NCBI GenBank assembly: GCA_943355085.1
Contig: CALREC010000006.1
Coordinates: 1-10,741 of the forward strand
DNA from: Candidatus Altimarinota bacterium
Lineage (GTDB): Bacteria; Patescibacteriota; Gracilibacteria; BD1-5; UBA2023
Length of the DNA stretch: 10,741 nt
Direction of reading: 5' to 3'
Under the pieces are notes generated by a model. That model saw nothing but the letters and a program-made list of their open reading frames with translations, was not told the DNA's origin and ran no database searches. The position numbers and the translations under genes are program-made. Of the stretch, positions 2,944 to 10,455 are shown piece by piece; within the stretch, counting starts at the first letter, position 1; each line of letters opens with the position of its first letter.

Positions 2944-4129
2944 ATGTCTCAAGCACGTCCTCTCGCTGGTTTTAATGGATTACGTGCGCTTGCGTGCCTG
3001 AGCGTACTCTTTTATCACCTCAATCAACACAGAAGTGTCACGAATCTATCAGAATGGAACTGGGACTTATATCAGTTTACAGAGATGTGGCCCGTGGCTG
3101 TGAGTCTTTTTTTTATACTCTCAGCAGTGACAAATTCACTTCCATTTTGGCGTGCACTACTCAAAAATGGAACCATGCCAAATATCCGAGAACATCTTAC
3201 GAGTCGTTTTTTTCGGATTGCTCCAGTATATTATGTTGTCTTGATTTTTACTTTTATACTCGTACTCGGACTGGATGGTCCTCAAGATGGTATGTTTGTA
3301 CGATTGTTTTCAGGACTCACTTTTCTGTCTTGGGTACACCCATTTACGTTCTTTCCCGTAGATATCAATGGTCCTCTTTGGTACATATCATATGACATGA
3401 TGGGGGTATTGCTTGTCATGTGAACCATGTATGTATTGAGTCGCGTAAGAAAAATATATATTCCTCTTATTTTTTTACTTGTAAGCACCCTCCTGATCTG
3501 ATGACATATAGTTTTTACAAGTCTTCCTTTCCCTGTTTTAGATGGCATTGTGAGCGAATGGTTTCCAGCATACAATCCTTTTATTTTTGGACTGCATTTT
3601 CTCATATGAGTTATGATTGCCTGAGTTCTTGTCTGGCAAGAAAAAAAAACACGCACACGCCTCGATCTGGTACGATTGTTTTTTTATCATAAACGGTATA
3701 TGACTCCTCTATTTTCTCTGGACCATACGCGAAGCGGGGGATCTCCAGTATACACTCTTTCATAGTCCCCATAGGTTCCCATTTGCAACCATTCCCATAG
3801 CGTTTCTTGTCATGCTTGCTCCGCACACAAGGTATATGGGCAAATGGCTGGACAATAGAGTATTTCAGCATATTGCTCGACTCTCCTACTCGACGTATCT
3901 GTGGCATGCTATCATCATCGTTATGATGACGAGATTTATTTTTTGATGAGTACATGATTTACCTATGTCAGAATGGTGTATATTGGTAGTAGTAACTATT
4001 TTCTGATCTTTTTCTGTGGCTTGGCTGAGCTATAATTACATAGAAATTCCTATTGCAAATTGGTGGCGGAGTCGCCAAGATCGAAGAGTAGATAAGACAG
4101 CAATAGCATACAAGAAAGAAAGTACATAA
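2944..4129 (+). CDS. OafA-like acyltransferase family 3 membrane protein, frameshifted
   Basis: An integral membrane O-acyltransferase expected to acetylate a surface glycan. The N terminus GFNGLRALACLSVLFYHL carries the family Arg14 and catalytic-type His25; SRFFRIAPVYYV (about 87-98), GPLWYISYDMM (143-153), and near the end LSYSTYLWH and YNYIEIPIANW are all family 3 landmarks. The frame from 2944 meets TAG at 3763-3765 after 273 residues, yet the family C terminus continues in the +1 frame to TAA 4127-4129. Dropping one T from the T7 run at 3679-3685 gives a single 394-residue protein of normal length and creates a good helix (LFFIINGIGLLYFLWTI). An A9 run at 3641-3649 is a second possible shift site. 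Nine UGA codons read as Gly on both sides of the shift. It may be a sequencing error, a phase-variable gene or a recent pseudogene. It follows the flippase by 53 bases. Confidence 0.82.
3641..3685 (+). repeat. A9 and T7 homopolymer runs at the acyltransferase frameshift
   Basis: A9 occupies 3641-3649 and T7 occupies 3679-3685. One-base loss in either would join the two reading frames of the acyltransferase. T7 gives the cleaner join, because the charged QEKKTRTRLDLVR loop then runs directly into a hydrophobic helix. Such tracts are classic slippage sites and also classic sequencing-error sites. Confidence 0.6.
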
Positions 4130-4183: not shown

Positions 4184-4210
4184 AAAAAAAGGAGTACCCG
4201 AAGGTACTCC
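4184..4210 (-). terminator. Rho-independent terminator with UUCG tetraloop
   Basis: On the minus strand, GGAGTACC - TTCG - GGTACTCC (4210 to 4191) is a perfect 8-bp stem closed by C(UUCG)G, an exceptionally stable tetraloop, followed at once by seven U (4190-4184). It lies 80 bases past the stop of the minus-strand gene ending at 4290. Read on the plus strand, the hairpin is followed only by a broken AT run, so any termination of the acyltransferase transcript from the other side would be weaker. Confidence 0.92.
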
Positions 4211-4289
4211 CAAATTTTGACACCAGCCATCGAAACGTAAGATACATATTTCAAAATGATCAAACGTTCGAGAGCCAAGTATCGATTCA

Positions 4290-5228
4290 CTACACAGGAC
4301 CGAATGGAGCGAAAGCCGACACGGAACCGTAGCGTTCGTCAGCGCCATCAAACCAACATGTGTAAAGCCCGATATCTCCGTCGCCGAACCCAATTACTGG
4401 AGCCCCTTCAAACACACCATCGGCGTCCGGAGAGTATTCATCGCCGGGGCAATAGAGCCATAAATCGTCAAAATTTTTCAGACGGGTATCATGAGTCAGT
4501 AACCAGGTGAATGCTTTGAAGATACCACTACCGTACTCGTTAGTACGACTCGGGAACAGCACGTGCGCACGACGAATGCTTTGTCCGGCGTGGAGCTTCC
4601 CGAATTGCCCCATCTCGATCCAGAGTTCCGGCCCCTGTATTTCACTGAGCCGAGACTCCATGTCGACAGTGCTGGCAACTTGCCTGAGGTACTCAGGTCC
4701 GAGGTTGTCACCGAGGTAGTTCATGAGTCTTCCGCCGACTGAACGGGACAAGATCTCGATCGCAACCTTGACATTCTGGTCGTAATTTGGACCAAAGAAT
4801 GTAGGATTCACCGATGCAAACCACTTTTCGGCGCCATCGACCAAACCAATTTTATCATACTCTTGGGCCAGTTTCCATGCGCGATCAGGGTTGATGCGCG
4901 AGTATTCTGGTTGAGAGCGGATTAAGTCGATCTGACGGGCGAGGTCTTTCAGACTAGATTGGTAACCGCATATATAACCGTAACTGGACTGTATTTCCTC
5001 ATCAGAAAAGTCTTGAGGCATATGAGAGTGGTGAACAACTGCGACGCTATTTGCAGCGACCGTTGCTGAAACTTCTGTCGCAAAACGAGCATGCCCTGCA
5101 GTGATGCCTTGGACAGCATTTTTCGAAGAACCTAGCTGGTTAATAGCTGCGATCACCTCAACCACTGCCTTGCGGGCTGCAGATTCAGTGAATTGATCGA
5201 TTTGTCCTGATGTGATCCTGTTGGTCAT
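4290..5228 (-). CDS. Unrecognised 312-aa protein, paralogue of 9410-10369; GC-rich, no UGA codon
   Basis: Function unknown. It starts at ATG 5228 (MTNRITSGQIDQF), 7 nt after AAGGAG. An ATG directly upstream at 5231 is possible, but the 5228 choice matches the paralogue's N terminus and SD spacing. No signal peptide or membrane helix, so probably cytoplasmic. N-terminal region Ala-rich and helical; then YGYICG (83-88), LARQIDLIRSQPEY (96-109), WKLAQE (118-123), EILSRSVG (158-165), GPEYLRQVAS (177-186), QGPELWIE (198-205), WLL (242-244), and a Gly/Asp-rich tail with CPGDE. All these blocks recur in the second copy. Its roughly 29 Gly codons include no UGA, although the flippase uses UGA for about a quarter of its Gly. 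One 60-base stretch (4861-4920) is about 57% GC against about 33% in the flippase (2161-2220). Together with a private promoter, SD and terminator, this suggests a self-contained, possibly transferred gene. Confidence 0.85.
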   Translation of the reverse strand: MTNRITSGQIDQFTESAARKAVVEVIAAINQLGSSKNAVQGITAGHARFATEVSATVAANSVAVVHHSHMPQDFSDEEIQSSYGYICGYQSSLKDLARQIDLIRSQPEYSRINPDRAWKLAQEYDKIGLVDGAEKWFASVNPTFFGPNYDQNVKVAIEILSRSVGGRLMNYLGDNLGPEYLRQVASTVDMESRLSEIQGPELWIEMGQFGKLHAGQSIRRAHVLFPSRTNEYGSGIFKAFTWLLTHDTRLKNFDDLWLYCPGDEYSPDADGVFEGAPVIGFGDGDIGLYTCWFDGADERYGSVSAFAPFGPV

Positions 5229-5235
5229 CATCTTT

Positions 5236-5241
5236 CTCCTT
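5236..5241 (-). promoter_or_regulatory. Strong Shine-Dalgarno of the 312-aa gene
   Basis: The minus strand reads AAGGAG here, 7 nt before ATG 5228 and 4 nt before ATG 5231. The paralogue has AGGAG exactly 7 nt before its ATG, which favours 5228 as the start. None of the nine plus-strand genes with a visible start has such a site. Confidence 0.85.
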
Positions 5242-5254
5242 CCATTTGATAAAC

Positions 5255-5296
5255 ATGTCCGAACTTTGAAATTAGCCTCTCGGACATAGGCTAATT
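5255..5296 (-). promoter_or_regulatory. Interleaved inverted repeats in the leader, possible H-type pseudoknot or operator
   Basis: Minus-strand order: AATTAGCC (5296-5289), one base, ATGTCCGA (5287-5280), two bases, GGCTAATT (5277-5270), seven bases, TCGGACAT (5262-5255). Arm 1 pairs with arm 3 and arm 2 with arm 4, both perfect over 8 bp. This ABA'B' arrangement is that of an H-type RNA pseudoknot, ending 13 nt before the SD. A start site about 6-7 nt past the -10 would fall inside the first arm and leave about 6 bp of stem 1. A DNA operator for two dimeric binding events is the alternative. The second paralogue shows no equivalent. Confidence 0.6.
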
Positions 5297-5299
5297 GAC

Positions 5300-5326
5300 A
5301 TAATACGAAAAATCATGTTTTGTCAA
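5300..5326 (-). promoter_or_regulatory. Sigma-70-type promoter for the 312-aa gene
   Basis: Minus strand: -35 TTGACA (5326-5321), a 15-nt spacer ending TTCG, -10 TATTAT (5305-5300). The -35 is perfect; the -10 matches TATAAT at 5 of 6 positions. The spacer is short, but the same TTGACA...TTCG-TAT layout stands before the paralogue, which supports it. Confidence 0.75.
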
Positions 5327-5592
5327 AAGTATTTTAAATTGATAAATATTTTAAATTCCATATGTCTTATCAAATCTTGCAAAAATAGATATAGAAAAAA
5401 TCAAGCAAGCAAAAGAGACATTTATACAAATTCATACTCTCTAGATACAGGAGTATTTTCGAAAAAGAAAATAACATAGATATAACCCCTACGATTTTCT
5501 CGTATTGCTTTTCTGCAAGAAAAAGATAAAATCATCCCTAGTCATGGAAAGTCTGGCATGAAGATGTAATTTATTAAACCAATTTTTCAAAC
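5327..5592. other. AT-rich intergenic region between divergent genes
   Basis: No convincing gene. It holds a weak hairpin (ATACTC 5434-5439 with GAGTAT 5451-5456) and the candidate promoter at 5505-5532. No tRNA-like cloverleaf, array or insertion-sequence end was seen. Confidence 0.5.
5505..5532 (+). promoter_or_regulatory. Candidate promoter for the four-span membrane protein
   Basis: TTGCTT (5505-5510), 16-nt spacer, TAAAAT (5527-5532), 60 bases before the ATG at 5593. Fair matches to -35 and -10 consensus in AT-rich DNA, so chance resemblance is possible. Confidence 0.4.
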
Positions 5593-6396
5593 ATGAAAAA
5601 AGTAAAAAAGAAATTGAGAAAAATATTTATCAAGTGAATATTTTTATCCACATTCCTGCTTTCAGCTCTATTGGTCGGGATAAAACTCATCATACCCCAA
5701 GAGTTTCAATTTATAGAACCTATTTCCATATACGGAAGCATCCTCTCATCCGTTATATTTATCTACTGATTCATACTGGCTCCGGCTATCGCGGAATACA
5801 AAGAGAGTGAAAAGTTGCTCACTGATATTAAAAACTCGCTCATCAATATACGCGAGGATGTGGGATATTTTCATTGACTCAAGGGAGATTTTGCTGTAAA
5901 TGATTTTTATAAAATATTAGCAGAAGCGATAGATAATTTTTACCACTCCATAGCAGATGATAGAGAAGCTGAATATCCATATATTTTACATACACTCACC
6001 CCCCTGATTCTACAAGGAGAAAAGCTTTGAATTACTGCAAATCATGTCATTCGACTCAAACAAGAAATATCCATTGTTCAAAAAAGTTTTTTACGAATCA
6101 CTGAAATTAAGCAAAAAGATTCTATGCCCAAGCTGATTCATCATCTGAAGGATTTTATTACATTTATGGTTATCATAACTTTGTTGTTCCTAAATATATG
6201 AACGGCTGGTCTTGATATAATCGGACAAATTGAGGAATCCATCATGCTATTTTTGATATCGTTTCTCTATATATATCTATCATTTATCATCAATGGATTT
6301 GATAATCCATTTGACAAAAGAAGGTTCAATGGTTTTTTGGACCTCACATTTTTATTGGATATCACTAGAGAATTGGAGCAAAAATATGTCAGATAA
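5593..6396 (+). CDS. Four-span membrane protein, possibly DUF4239/bestrophin-like
   Basis: 267 residues from ATG 5593 to TAA 6394-6396, with five UGA codons read as Gly (5635, 5767, 5875, 6028, 6199). It opens with a very basic segment (MKKVKKKLRKIFIK). Hydrophobic helices lie at about 13-33 and 46-66, then a roughly 120-residue soluble charged helical domain, then helices at about 187-204 and 217-234. A short cytoplasmic tail begins FDNPFD and ends LEQKYVR. The 2+2 helix plan around a large soluble domain, with a D-x-PF motif straight after the last helix, recalls the DUF4239 bestrophin-like family of putative channels, but the match is loose. It is transcribed divergently from the 312-aa gene and precedes the VF530-type gene by 71 bases. 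No SD. I am confident it is a gene and unsure of its function. Confidence 0.72.
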
Positions 6397-6467
6397 ATAC
6401 AACATCATACCCTATGTATGCATCACCATCAAAAAATAGCATCTATAACATAAATCTATAAAATTAC

Positions 6468-6740
6468 ATGCAACAAAATAACCGAACCGATGAGATACTT
6501 CATGGAGTGACCCTTTCTATGATCATGGATGTTCTCATAGAACAATATGGTTTCAAGGAGCTCAGTGAGCTTATTCGGATCAATTGCTTCAAGAGTCATC
6601 CAAGCAAAGAATCGAGTCTCAAATTTTTGAGAAAAACTGAATGGGCTCGTTTGCAAGTCCAAGGCCTCTATATACGAACTCTGCTTGAAAAAAACAAAAA
6701 AACGAGTACACCACCAAAAATAGAAATAGGAGCCGTTTAG
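6468..6740 (+). CDS. VF530-family (DUF2132) DNA-binding protein
   Basis: 90 residues, ATG 6468, TAG 6738-6740, no UGA codon. It matches the small VF530 family almost end to end: LHGVTL (11-16), L-x-EQYGFKEL (23-32), IRINCF (36-41), then the diagnostic SSLKFLRKTEWARLQVQGLY (49-68). The family is a compact helical DNA-binding domain known from a Vibrio fischeri structure; its cellular role is not settled. The C-terminal 18 residues (KNKKTSTPPKIEIGAV and preceding) are a basic, probably disordered extension. RNase HII starts 26 bases downstream, so the two are likely co-transcribed, which loosely suggests a nucleic-acid housekeeping pair. Confidence 0.88.
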   Translation: MQQNNRTDEILHGVTLSMIMDVLIEQYGFKELSELIRINCFKSHPSKESSLKFLRKTEWARLQVQGLYIRTLLEKNKKTSTPPKIEIGAV

Positions 6741-6766
6741 ATATTATTATTATTCACCAAGATGCT

Positions 6767-7390
6767 ATGCATAAATACTTTCTCATAGGAGTAGATGAAG
6801 CAGGGCGTGGCTCATGGGCTGGCCCCGTGGTTGCTGCTGCCTACGCTCTCAAGCAAAACGCAAACTATGTCTTCTCTCCCCTCCTCAACGATTCCAAAAA
6901 GCTTTCACCCAAAAAACGAGAAGCGATCTATGCCATGCTTACTGAGTCGATGCAACAAGGACTTTGCCATGGTGGTGTTGGGATCGTAAGTCCCCAGACT
7001 ATAGACCGAGTTGGCATACGCGAAGCCAATAGACTCGCCATGGAGGAAGCACTCAGACAAGTTATCTCTCAAGTATGAGATAACTTTCAAACCATAAAAA
7101 TAGATGGTCGTGATAATTATGCATTTTCAGACATAACATGATCACGTATTGAGTACATAGTTCGTGGGGATAGTTTTGTAAGAGAAATTCAAGCCGCTTC
7201 TATTCTCGCAAAAGTAAGTCGGGATCATCTCATGGAGGATCTGGCAAAAACATATACCAATTATGGACTGGAAAAACATAAATGATATGGAACCTATCTC
7301 CATGCAGAACTCCTCTCTAAACACTGACCATCGGACATACATCGTAAAAGCTACGCTCCTATAAAAAAGTTGATTTTGACCAGAGAATAG
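6767..7390 (+). CDS. rnhB: Ribonuclease HII (UGA = Gly)
   Basis: 207 residues, normal RNase HII length. The enzyme nicks RNA in RNA/DNA hybrids, including 5' of single ribonucleotides misincorporated into DNA. Catalytic acids are visible: D10 and E11 in GVDEAGRG, D113 in KIDGRDN and D135 in VRGDSF. Other landmarks are [39 protein letters not shown] and [11 protein letters not shown]. Four UGA codons (7076, 7139, 7283, 7325) read as Gly; those at 7283 (HKG-YGT) and 7325 (KHG-PS) fall on strongly conserved glycines and independently confirm code 25. TAG stop. The VF530-type gene lies 26 bases upstream. No SD before ATG 6767. With the standard code the protein would be cut at residue 103 and lose two catalytic acids. 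Confidence 0.95.
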
Positions 7391-7416
7391 ATATGATAGC
7401 TCAGATAAAATATATA

Positions 7417-7436
7417 TTTAATTTAATTTAATTTTT
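7417..7436. repeat. Short TTTAA tandem repeat
   Basis: Three perfect TTTAA units (7417-7431) followed by T5, in the 58-base gap between rnhB and the secreted protein gene. It may be a promoter-associated AT element or simple slippage. Confidence 0.5.
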
Positions 7437-7448
7437 GACCTCTTTTTT

Positions 7449-8462
7449 ATGATTTCACCAAAATACATACTATCTCTTTTTTGTATCGGACTCGTATCGA
7501 TACAGTTGCCAGTATTTGCAGACAATGTGTCAGATATGAAAGATATGGTAAATAATAGCATCACGAAACTCATCCAGAGTTATGAGCTTCGTATCAAAAA
7601 TCTTGAAACCGAAAATAGTGCCCTCAAACAAGAAATTGTAAACTTGAAAGGTACTACAACCACTGGAACAAATTTGACAACAACCATAATCCCTACGGTG
7701 ACTGCTCCCATTGTTGTAGCACAAATTTCAACCGCTACCGGAACAAAATCAGACATATATAATAGCGTCATAAAACAAGCTAATGCCAATCTCGGAGCAA
7801 TCCTTTCAGAAAATACTCTCCCCGCCTACTCGGCCATAGGACTCTTTGAGTTTATAGAACCAAATGCTGTTTTTATATCGCTCGATGATGGAAATAATCC
7901 GGCATGAGTGACGGCATTTAAAACAAAAATACTCTATACATTCGATACCAATGGAGTCTTTACAAAAATTGGAATTTTTGATCTCGATTATGCATCCCAG
8001 AAGTACCGGACTCTGCTTGGAACTAATCCTTTTGCCAAATCTGCTCGAACCAGAGTACCAAATGCAGGATACAAAGGCAAACTCTTTGACGCAATTGTGG
8101 CGACAAGTACGGGTACTACAACCTCATCTGGAATCATAACTCCATCTCTCCCAGTTACCACAGAGGTAACCGTTGCCCAGATAAAAGCCGCCTACGACAA
8201 GACCAAGCTCCTCGATGCGATAAAACTTTCTGATACATTCATCGTCAACACCCCAAATAATATCGAGGTGCTCCGTATACGATATCGTAGTTATTATATC
8301 ATAGGAAAATATGACAATTCTCTCTCCGAGATCAAAAAAATAGAAGAGCTCCAGGCGAGTGCCTTTGAGAGAACGATTGCATGTGACGCTGCAGTGATTG
8401 GAAAGATAGCAAAGAAACCCGATATCAGCACCTACTATAGTGCCATCTGTAAGAAAAAATAG
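7449..8462 (+). CDS. Secreted coiled-coil protein with C-terminal TPR-like helices
   Basis: 337 residues from ATG 7449 to TAG 8460-8462; one UGA (7905-7907, residue 153) read as Gly joins two long open frames. Residues 1-24 form a signal peptide with a likely cut after PVFA, so it is exported. About 28-68 is a heptad-like coiled coil (KNLETENSALKQEIVNLK). A Thr-rich linker follows (about 69-97), then a mixed domain containing GLFEFIEPNAVFISLDDG, a second Thr/Ser-rich linker near 217-236, and a helical C terminus (AAYDKTKLLDAIKLSDTFI, RYRSYYIIGKYDNSLSEI) that looks TPR-like. Coiled coil, linker and TPR recall CpoB/YbgF, which coordinates envelope work during division, but the middle domain is extra and the similarity is architectural only. 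ACCTC lies 6 nt before the ATG; no SD. Confidence 0.78.
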
Positions 8463-8533
8463 GAAACATCTGAAAAACTTTTTCTTTATACTCAAAGTTA
8501 TGTTTCCTCCTTCACTGTACTCCTTCGTACAGT
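8461..8533. other. Two hairpins between the secreted protein and the response regulator
   Basis: AGGAAACAT (8461-8469, overlapping the stop) pairs with ATGTTTCCT (8500-8508), with AACTTT/AAAGTT inside. A second perfect stem is ACTGTAC (8514-8520) with GTACAGT (8527-8533) around TCCTTC. Neither is followed by a U tract, so an intrinsic terminator is doubtful; they may end or protect the upstream mRNA or lead the next gene. Confidence 0.45.
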
Positions 8534-8632
8534 TCACTCCGGTACGTACTTTTCATATAAATTACTTCGTTTTTGAGAAATTTCCTAAGAATCTCTGACC
8601 AGGCTCATCTCACTTTATCTAACCTCATTCTT

Positions 8633-9316
8633 ATGACCCACATTCTCCTCATAGAAGATGATGACTGAATTATTAAATCCCTCTCCCTCTACCTTGCACA
8701 GGGCGATAACAAAATAAGTATTGCCCGTGATGGAGAACAAGCTCTAGAAATATTCAAACAGTCAGGATCTCATATAGATCTCATAATCCTCGATCTGAAT
8801 CTCCCAAAAAAAGATGGTTTTTCTGTATGCAAAGAGATCCGAGAAACGAGCAGCACACCAATCATCGTGCTTTCTGCCCGCGATAACGAGGACGACAAGG
8901 TTCGAGCCCTCGAACTCGGAGCCGACGACTATATCTCGAAACCATTCTCCCCTCGCGAACTCATGGCTCGAATCTGAGCTATTTTGAAACGCCTCGGGAA
9001 GCAGGCAACAACCGAGAAGAAAGAAACACACCTCACCTTTGGTAACATGGCCCTTGATATGTCCGAGTACCTTCTGAAGATATTGGATGAAGTTATCAAA
9101 GTGACAAAAACAGAGTTTCTGATCCTCGCCTATCTGGTAGAGCGAGCGGGGCATATAGTCGAGCGTGAAACACTCATGAAAGAGATTATCGGATACGACC
9201 ACTATCTCTATGATCGTACTATCGATACCCATATGAAGAACCTCCGAAAAAAGATCGGAAGTGCGGCAAATATCGAGACGGTGCGTGGTATTGGGTATAG
9301 GATTACAAAAGTATAA
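8633..9316 (+). CDS. OmpR/PhoB-family response regulator, orphan in this window (UGA = Gly)
   Basis: 227 residues, ATG 8633 to TAA 9314-9316. The receiver domain (about 1-118) has the acidic pocket EDDD (8-11), phospho-acceptor D54 in LIILDLNLP, S81, Y100 and K103 in ISKPF. The DNA-binding winged helix (about 129-227) shows TKTEFLILAYLVERAGHIVE, YDRTIDTHMKNLRKKIG and TVRGIGYRI. UGA at 8666 (residue 12, after EDDD) and 8975 (residue 115, MARI-G) read as Gly; without this only the DNA-binding half would be seen. Phosphorylation at D54 by a sensor kinase should drive dimerisation and promoter binding. No histidine kinase lies beside it, and a terminator follows at once, so its partner must be elsewhere. 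Targets unknown. ACCTC lies 6 nt before the ATG; no SD. Confidence 0.93.
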
Positions 9317-9355
9317 GAGCCCTTTTAAATTTTTGTTTTTTTGGATATACACAAG

Positions 9356-9387
9356 AAAAAAGGAAGTACTCGAGAGTACTTCCTTTT
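9356..9387. terminator. Bidirectional terminator between convergent genes
   Basis: GGAAGTACT (9362-9370), loop CGAG, AGTACTTCC (9375-9383): a perfect 9-bp stem with A6 before and T4 after. On the minus strand it gives six U and serves the gene ending at 9410; on the plus strand it gives four U and serves the response regulator ending at 9316. The stem core resembles that of the 4184-4210 terminator, which serves the paralogue. Confidence 0.88.
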
Positions 9388-9409
9388 GGTAAATCAAGAT
9401 GCTCAAATC

Positions 9410-10369
9410 CTAAGAAGGATCAAACACTTGAAGTTCATGAAAATATTTAAGTATAAAACACCCTTCCTTTACACTAAAATCTAGATAAAAACATGGAACA
9501 CAAGAAAAATCCTCATCCATGCTTGAAGCAATATCCCCATCGCAAGTTATAGCAAAAGGCTCATGAAATGGTTCCAGTGTTTCAACCAACAACCATGAAG
9601 CAATCATGAAAGTGGATCTTGGTAGTGCATAATTGCAGTCACCGTAGAGAAGCCTTCTTTTGTCTCTAGATATACCCTGTGCAAGAAAATATTTTTCTTG
9701 TTCCTGTTTCAAAAATTCCGCGGTCATTTTCTTGAGATGAAGACGAAACTCTGTTTCTGGCCTTCTGAAAAGCTCAACCCAGATACCACTTCCTTGCTGT
9801 TCACGTAATTTCGATTCTATAGGATTAACTAGAGTAGCGACTTGACGCAAACACTCAGGACCAAAATCCCGCTTCTTGACATGGCTTTCAAAATATTTAC
9901 CATAACTCCGAGACAATATATTGATAGAAGCATCCAAAGCTTGGTTATAGTCCGGAAAACATGACAAGGGGTCGATAGACACTTGCAGTTTCTGGCGTGA
10001 CATAGGAATATCAGGAGACTTGAGTAACTCTTTTGCAAGCTTCCAAGGTGCATTCAAGTCCAAGTGCGCATATTCTGGTTGCGCATGGATGATATCCATT
10101 TGACGAACCAGATCTTCCAATCTTAGATTACGCCCCTCTAAATATCCATACCGATCATTTGGCTCGGGTGAGATAATCGCAAGTTTTTGAATTACCTGAC
10201 TTAAGCCTTGTTGTAATTCTCCACCATGTTCGATGATATTTTGCATAGAACTTTTATTGATACCAATAGTATCAATAGCGCTCAATGCAGCATCTTCGAC
10301 CAAACGAGAAAATTGCTTGATTTGACCCTCGGTAGCACTCCTATTTGTAGATGTGATCTGTGAAGTCAT
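9410..10369 (-). CDS. Unrecognised 319-aa protein, paralogue of 4290-5228, no UGA codon
   Basis: Function unknown. ATG 10369 (MTSQITS...EGQIKQF) is chosen because AGGAG lies 7 nt upstream and the N terminus then matches the paralogue; an in-frame TTG at 10399 would put that SD inside the gene. No signal peptide or membrane helix. Blocks shared with 4290-5228: YGYLEG (74-79), LVRQMDIIHAQPEY (87-100), WKLAKE (109-114), PDYNQALDASINILSRSYG (139-157), FGPECLRQVA (169-178), E-x-QGSGIWVEL (190-200), SWLL (258-261) and TCDGD (275-279). It differs by about 30 extra residues around 205-245 (charged, KQEQEKYF) and a different, Cys- and aromatic-rich tail. Base composition is closer to the neighbours (about 43% GC in 10081-10140), and none of its roughly 15 Gly is UGA. 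It is a monocistron, convergent with the response regulator. Confidence 0.85.
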   Translation of the reverse strand: MTSQITSTNRSATEGQIKQFSRLVEDAALSAIDTIGINKSSMQNIIEHGGELQQGLSQVIQKLAIISPEPNDRYGYLEGRNLRLEDLVRQMDIIHAQPEYAHLDLNAPWKLAKELLKSPDIPMSRQKLQVSIDPLSCFPDYNQALDASINILSRSYGKYFESHVKKRDFGPECLRQVATLVNPIESKLREQQGSGIWVELFRRPETEFRLHLKKMTAEFLKQEQEKYFLAQGISRDKRRLLYGDCNYALPRSTFMIASWLLVETLEPFHEPFAITCDGDIASSMDEDFSCVPCFYLDFSVKEGCFILKYFHELQVFDPS

Positions 10370-10376
10370 CACCACT

Positions 10377-10381
10377 CTCCT
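10377..10381 (-). promoter_or_regulatory. Shine-Dalgarno of the 319-aa gene
   Basis: The minus strand reads AGGAG, 7 nt before ATG 10369, the same spacing as in the paralogue. It decides the start against the upstream TTG at 10399. Confidence 0.82.
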
Positions 10382-10427
10382 ATTTTCATAACAATCCAAG
10401 AATAAAGCCCCTAGATATGGCCAGCTA

Positions 10428-10455
10428 TTTATACGAAGGATTTTTTATATGTCAA
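10428..10455 (-). promoter_or_regulatory. Sigma-70-type promoter for the 319-aa gene
   Basis: Minus strand: -35 TTGACA (10455-10450), 16-nt spacer ending TTCG, -10 TATAAA (10433-10428). The -35, the TTCG before the -10 and the preceding TTT all recur before the paralogue at 5300-5326. The leader of about 50 nt shows no interleaved repeats like those of the first copy. Confidence 0.78.

Follow-up and report, generated by a model that had tools for sequence, protein, structure and literature searches.

Stand-alone homologues of diversity-generating retroelement variable proteins, one with a predicted leader pseudoknot, in a Candidatus Altimarinota genome

The C-type-lectin-like domain is the usual display scaffold of diversity-generating retroelements (DGRs), and small pseudoknot leaders with translation control, such as preQ1-II and ribosomal-protein leaders, are known as well. 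The DGR targets of Patescibacteria are hypervariable and poorly understood; those of DGR clade 2 have, according to one survey, no recognisable domains (Roux 2021, PMC8144416). Here we describe two genes, copy 1 (protein P0001) and copy 2 (protein P0002), on a stretch of 10,741 nucleotides from Candidatus Altimarinota bacterium (assembly GCA_943355085.1, contig CALREC010000006.1), hereafter the window. We favour, with a probability of roughly 0.7, the explanation that they are stand-alone members of a patescibacterial family of DGR variable proteins, copy 1 being fixed and preceded by a regulatory leader pseudoknot, copy 2 decaying. The novelty lies in detached, probably frozen homologues of DGR targets that go together with a recurrent leader RNA element.

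Like DGR clade 2, the window family has pairs of variable repeat (VR) and template repeat (TR) together with reverse transcriptases (RTs) in other Patescibacteria and, like the clade-2 targets as that survey presents them, it shows no Pfam match in the 17 members scanned (Roux 2021, PMC8144416). The family would presumably belong to this clade. Unlike patescibacterial DGR systems, the copies in this genome are dispersed single genes, with no TR or RT found in the assembly, and copy 1 has a predicted leader pseudoknot. The initial annotation had called the family undescribed, which holds only in part, since its relatives are DGR target proteins and domain-less patescibacterial DGR targets appear in the published survey (PMC8144416).

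A dispersed family of DGR variable-protein homologues

The window genome reads TGA as glycine (NCBI table 25), and several plus-strand genes of the window are open only under this table. Both family genes lie on the minus strand, which the initial annotation had not given; its single-gene units exist, the first starting at 5231 (or at the next in-frame ATG, 5228) and the second at 10369. Their products are homologous (BLASTP E 4e-30, 34% identity over 209 amino acids), and the ordered blocks reported for them are real in the N-terminal and middle parts, BLASTP aligning only the first 200 residues of P0002. A third copy lies on another contig of the same genome (G000:C19:4306-5208, the C19 copy). 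According to the lists of open reading frames (ORFs), each copy is a solitary gene flanked by genes of the other strand, and no partner gene is seen beside it; beyond copy 2 lies the contig end, without a clear gene. The three copies diverge from one another over the full protein length.

These three copies, and a wider distribution across the phylum, bear out the idea of independent units that form a dispersed multigene family. A five-member profile recovered the family in 33 of 379 genomes, the own genome included (27 of the 336 of good quality). Close to home it is rare, a query with P0001 alone finding it in five of 194 relatives, again including the own genome. Named genomes contributed 56 loci, most of which carry Patescibacteria labels of the Parcubacteria kind, and one viral contig was added to these. 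Some records carry the labels Loktanella, Acidobacteria, Lachnospiraceae or a beta proteobacterium, for which we cannot tell mis-binning from transfer. The viral-collection contig IMGVR_UViG_3300013232_000622 (L160) bears a family member with TR and RT.

The relatives reveal what kind of family this is. In several of them a second, asparagine-rich version of the protein's own C-terminus lies about 300-600 bases downstream of the gene, forming a VR/TR pair in which the last ~40 codons of the gene depart from the template where the latter has adenines. Across 25 such pairs, some from closely related loci, 438 of 802 TR adenines were changed, compared with 30 of 2457 other bases; the scoring did not favour adenine, although the ratio is slightly inflated because a pair was accepted only if at least half of its mismatches fell at A. 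Three candidates (the first gene of L118, L147 and L154) were dropped as paralogous VRs, their mismatches being mostly not at A. Of the 15 loci whose TR was accepted, 14 have an RT following it; the stretch of the remaining one (L120) ends before an RT could show. RT matches at E 1e-10 occur in 26 of the 33 family genomes, against 123 of all 379. The own copies and the proteins bearing VR/TR pairs fall into one sequence family, and the pairs and RTs of the relatives identify the window genes, by sequence, as homologues of DGR variable proteins.

The structure predicted for P0001 is consistent with this identity. Its AlphaFold2 (AF2) model, built from 41 sequences, is confident (pLDDT 89.3, pTM 0.81); the chain is helical to about residue 130, and a mixed domain follows. 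A Foldseek search with the model was weak (best E 0.92); a second-look structural alignment of residues 121-311 returned throughout proteins that we take, from their recognised names, to have the lectin fold, DGR proteins among them. The C-terminal part of copy 1 is thus predicted to be a C-type-lectin-like domain. Set against known lectin-fold DGR proteins, namely TvpA (2y3c), Mtd (1yu4) and TaqVP (5vf4), the family profile had no significant sequence match in the PDB (best E 0.27), and the similarity to Bd2740 of Bdellovibrio (8oks) concerns only its C-terminal domain, at 9% identity in the structural alignment with P0001. As to function, the lectin-like C-terminal domain makes the host interaction first proposed, or ligand binding, plausible, and nothing was found for toxin or immunity. 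A search of the profile kind proposed at the outset returned many members, and P0001 has one confident fold, the model of P0002 being too poor to judge; the outcome was thus neither an absence of further members nor a pair of unrelated folds.

A recurrent predicted pseudoknot in the leaders

Copy 1 is predicted to have an H-type pseudoknot, situated after its -10 and before its Shine-Dalgarno sequence, with a score (34.05) that none of 1000 dinucleotide shuffles matched. The same topology, 17-31 nucleotides before the start codon, was found in 26 of 55 non-redundant family leaders, compared with a mean of 2.33 (maximum 6) in 100 shuffled sets and with four of 54 control ORFs with a Shine-Dalgarno sequence from the same loci. 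The 55 remained from 56 leaders after removal of a near-duplicate; 20 entries of L104-L160 were excluded for want of a credible start, and members L008-L010, L019, L020, L022, L023, L026, L027, L032-L037, L039 and L040 were not in the test. A few of the 26 seem to differ in type (L107, the first gene of L118 and L017, for instance). The thresholds for this test, as for that of the simple repeats described below, were fixed after examples had been seen, and the control ORFs in both were called mechanically, so that not every one is a gene. The pseudoknot occurs with DGR-linked and stand-alone members alike, and the copies L141 and L011 from the same taxonomic family carry it (reached by 1 and 5 of 1000 shuffles). 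It is absent from the leaders of copy 2 and the C19 copy.

In 12 leaders that could be aligned by sequence, paired cells (88.9%, shuffled 76.9), double changes (11, shuffled 4.2) and the covariation score (0.441, shuffled 0.207, best slid version 0.111) all exceeded every one of 500 shuffles. The number of pairs with a double change (4 versus 2.4, reached by 19 of 500 shuffles) and of further pair types (11 versus 9.6, reached by 129) did not clearly pass chance. The covariation is located in stem 2, stem 1 being variable on one side at most. The pairing is partly built in because these leaders were chosen for having the pseudoknot, and a few with a shifted stem 1 were scored as unpaired.

As in preQ1-II and ribosomal-protein leaders, the predicted pseudoknot of copy 1 lies shortly before the Shine-Dalgarno sequence. 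Unlike known pseudoknot leaders, it matches no Rfam family at the gathering score: the search, made in the window and not in the relatives' leaders, gave five weak matches in the copy 1 leader, far below that score. A literature search on DGRs and pseudoknots, covering one paper collection, found no paper on DGR targets by title or start of abstract. This recurrent leader RNA element is apparently undescribed and is the most original part of the finding. Placed near the 5' end of the mRNA, it may control translation of copy 1 through the gene's own product, a ligand or ribosome access.

A different structure was seen in other Patescibacteria, where many of 20 folded leaders have a long, nearly perfect hairpin of about 17-25 base pairs upstream. 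Such hairpins, 5' of the pseudoknot region, occur in L104, L105, L108, L120, L126, L128, L130, L131, L132, L160, L016, L018 and L038; judged by eye, a GAGAC or GAGGC that follows is often a second possible partner of the 3' arm, and the structure may be bistable.

Stand-alone copies and competing explanations

In the own assembly, which is 78% complete, we found no matching TR and no RVT_1 or A2 RT match, and the own copies therefore look like former or detached DGR targets. Of the 54 loci in which a member is clear, 37 likewise show neither element in the stretch examined, and the other 17 show a TR or RT; some of the stretches stop at contig ends. The TR scan covered the gene's own strand only, and in L105 and L128 an RT is present together with a TR-like piece on the opposite strand. 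Further examination of 24 of the 37, from 23 genomes, showed 14 genomes without an RT at E 1e-10; in the other nine, 10 RT loci, covered over about 1.5 kb on each side, yielded no TR for the stand-alone gene.

Past diversification is expected to leave a trace. At columns where the TR reads AAC or AAT, the third base is C or T in 85 of 91 cases for rows linked to a TR and in 160 of 188 for rows without an accepted TR, against a background of 0.56; among the 27 imprint rows are L105, L128 and the DGR-adjacent first gene of L118. The imprint in rows without a TR fits past mutagenesis of adenines. It is weak in the own copies (14/20, p 0.07; 13/17, p 0.03 with stricter columns), as it would be if the family were an ordinary lectin-like one from which DGR targets were recruited, the branch of this genome never having been diversified. 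This explanation also agrees with a tree in which P0001 and P0002 form a branch of their own outside the others, at a midpoint root that serves for drawing only and with a bootstrap that had not settled, and with the lack of a TR for the window family in stretches from five genomes of the own taxonomic family, own included. We nevertheless consider it unlikely: other rows without an accepted TR are strongly imprinted, and P0001 keeps the VR scaffold residues DADG, F, AP and YGS, while its codons at the six strictest TR asparagine columns (GGG GGC TGT GGC GAC CGC) hold no asparagine.

The copies might instead be active targets mutated in trans by a TR and RT in the unassembled fifth of the genome. 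Remote DGR targets exist and escape contig-based surveys, as one such survey reports (Roux 2021, PMC8144416), and an RT match was found in five of the 10 genomes tested from the own genome, genus and family, the own genome not being among the five. Both TRs near the relatives' RTs (L091:4508-5468, L095:1833-2914), however, match another target type beside the RT and not the window family. The 10 RT loci of the nine genomes with a stand-alone copy and an RT yielded no TR for that copy, and the three own copies differ along the entire protein, so that remote diversification seems rather improbable here. That the genes are surface, toxin/immunity or similar cassettes with no relation to DGRs, as first proposed from their independent promoter-like and terminator-like sites, is very improbable given that their homologues are DGR targets, that the VR/TR data speak against it, that the own copies have no Pfam, NCBIfam or PHROGs match at E below 0.05 and that no partner gene stands beside them.

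Under the favoured explanation of stand-alone family members, copy 1 would be a fixed, no longer diversified ligand-binding variant expressed from its own promoter. Its GC content (0.506, window 0.39) and lack of TGA glycine codons (0 of 29, versus 30 of 148 in nine other window ORFs; chance 0.0014) suggest that it arrived recently from a relative with the standard code; no near relative, as a possible donor, was found. TGA makes up 0 of 15 glycine codons in copy 2 (chance 0.033) and one of 21 in the C19 copy. Copy 2 is probably a degenerate paralogue. Its AF2 model has a pLDDT of 68.3, much of the part past residue 200 being poorly modelled, and the tree makes P0001 its closest neighbour as sister (99/97), the branch of P0002 itself being very long (3.03). 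The C19 copy clusters with the G013 copies (99/89). P0002 and the C19 copy are both long rows, and their placement is unsure. Copy 2 would have inserted at or near a site where two same-genus genomes carry a response-regulator/histidine-kinase pair: the gene beside it (window 8633-9316), presumably a response regulator, is apart from its presumed kinase partner (G000:C12:7390-8724), and the two are adjacent in L179 and L181.

Control signals, repeat-bearing reverse transcriptases and a possible two-layer repertoire

The features are collected in Table 1. The -35 region of all three own copies is CTTTTGACA, followed by an AT-rich -10. The 130 bases upstream are alike beyond chance in each pair, with the clearest likeness in comparisons with the C19 copy (shuffles reaching the score: P0001-C19 0/300, P0002-C19 2/300, P0001-P0002 7/300); the 130 bases downstream are alike for the window pair (0/300) and not in comparison with the C19 copy (224/300 and 145/300). 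The copying of whole units with their control signals, as first supposed, thus holds for the -35 region and, within the window pair, for the terminator, but not for the leader, the pseudoknot of P0001 being absent in P0002; likewise, the TTCG before the -10 and the shared terminator type are found in both window copies and are missing from the third. A generic promoter scan with spacers of 16-18 nucleotides listed neither promoter, and promoter-like sites in the region were not above shuffles (15 versus 18.1). Terminator-like sites overall were at chance level (5 versus 4.8), and it is therefore their position behind the genes that supports these terminators.

Table 1 Features of the window and simple-repeat tracts in relatives
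Feature	Position	Strand	Remarks
Copy 1 (P0001)	4290..5231	-	313 amino acids; DGR-variable-protein homologue; helical N-terminal module and predicted C-type-lectin-like C-terminal domain
VR equivalent of copy 1 (residues 269-307)	4311..4427	-	alignment with relatives' VR/TR pairs
Predicted H-type pseudoknot, copy 1 leader	5256..5295	-	stem 1 ATTAGCCT/AGGCTAAT, stem 2 TGTCCGA/TCGGACA; 3' end 24 nucleotides before start codon
Promoter-like site, copy 1	5300..5326	-	TTGACA (5326-5321) N15 TATTAT (5305-5300); sequence, upstream similarity to C19 copy
Shine-Dalgarno, copy 1	5236..5241	-	AAGGAG; sequence
Intrinsic-terminator-like site, copy 1	4190..4211	-	terminator scan
Copy 2 (P0002)	9410..10369	-	319 amino acids; divergent, probably degenerate paralogue
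Promoter-like site, copy 2	10428..10455	-	TTGACA (10455-10450) N16 TATAAA (10433-10428); sequence, upstream similarity
Shine-Dalgarno, copy 2	10377..10381	-	AGGAG; sequence
Intrinsic-terminator-like site, copy 2	9358..9387	-	terminator scan
RT simple-repeat tracts (examples)	L041:3597, L044:4846, L042:2958, L043:4459, L050:3868	+	positions given on plus strand

Elsewhere in the window, a gene at 2944-4129 that we take to be acyltransferase-like appears broken into two frames, 2944-3765 and 3542-4129, which overlap close to runs of A and of T; error, decay and switching fit alike.

In the relatives, long simple repeats occur in 28 of 62 non-redundant patescibacterial DGR-type RT regions, compared with one of 404 other ORFs from the same loci. 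Some are (GA)n tracts that precede the GIPIGNLTSQ motif, others poly-G tracts close to the 5' end. The two halves of the RT lie in different frames in L041, L043 and L044, and the frame is open in L042. Phase variation of DGRs in these Patescibacteria is therefore likely, and the top of the literature listings in one collection held no report on DGRs with phase variation or simple repeats. Judged by eye, the RT gene at L045:5846-6500 is apparently interrupted by a recombinase-like reading frame.

These observations could tentatively be joined in a lectin repertoire of two layers, in which phase-variable DGRs, with RTs switched by GA or poly-G, generate variants, and detached copies keep chosen ones as dispersed, fixed and individually expressed genes, many under the shared pseudoknot; the window would then represent the fixed layer in a lineage that reads TGA as glycine. 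Simple repeats in RT genes would render diversification itself switchable, and the recurrent leader pseudoknot offers a handle on the control of such genes. Should the stand-alone genes prove to be an archive of variants, tests of their ligands would not require the mutating machinery.
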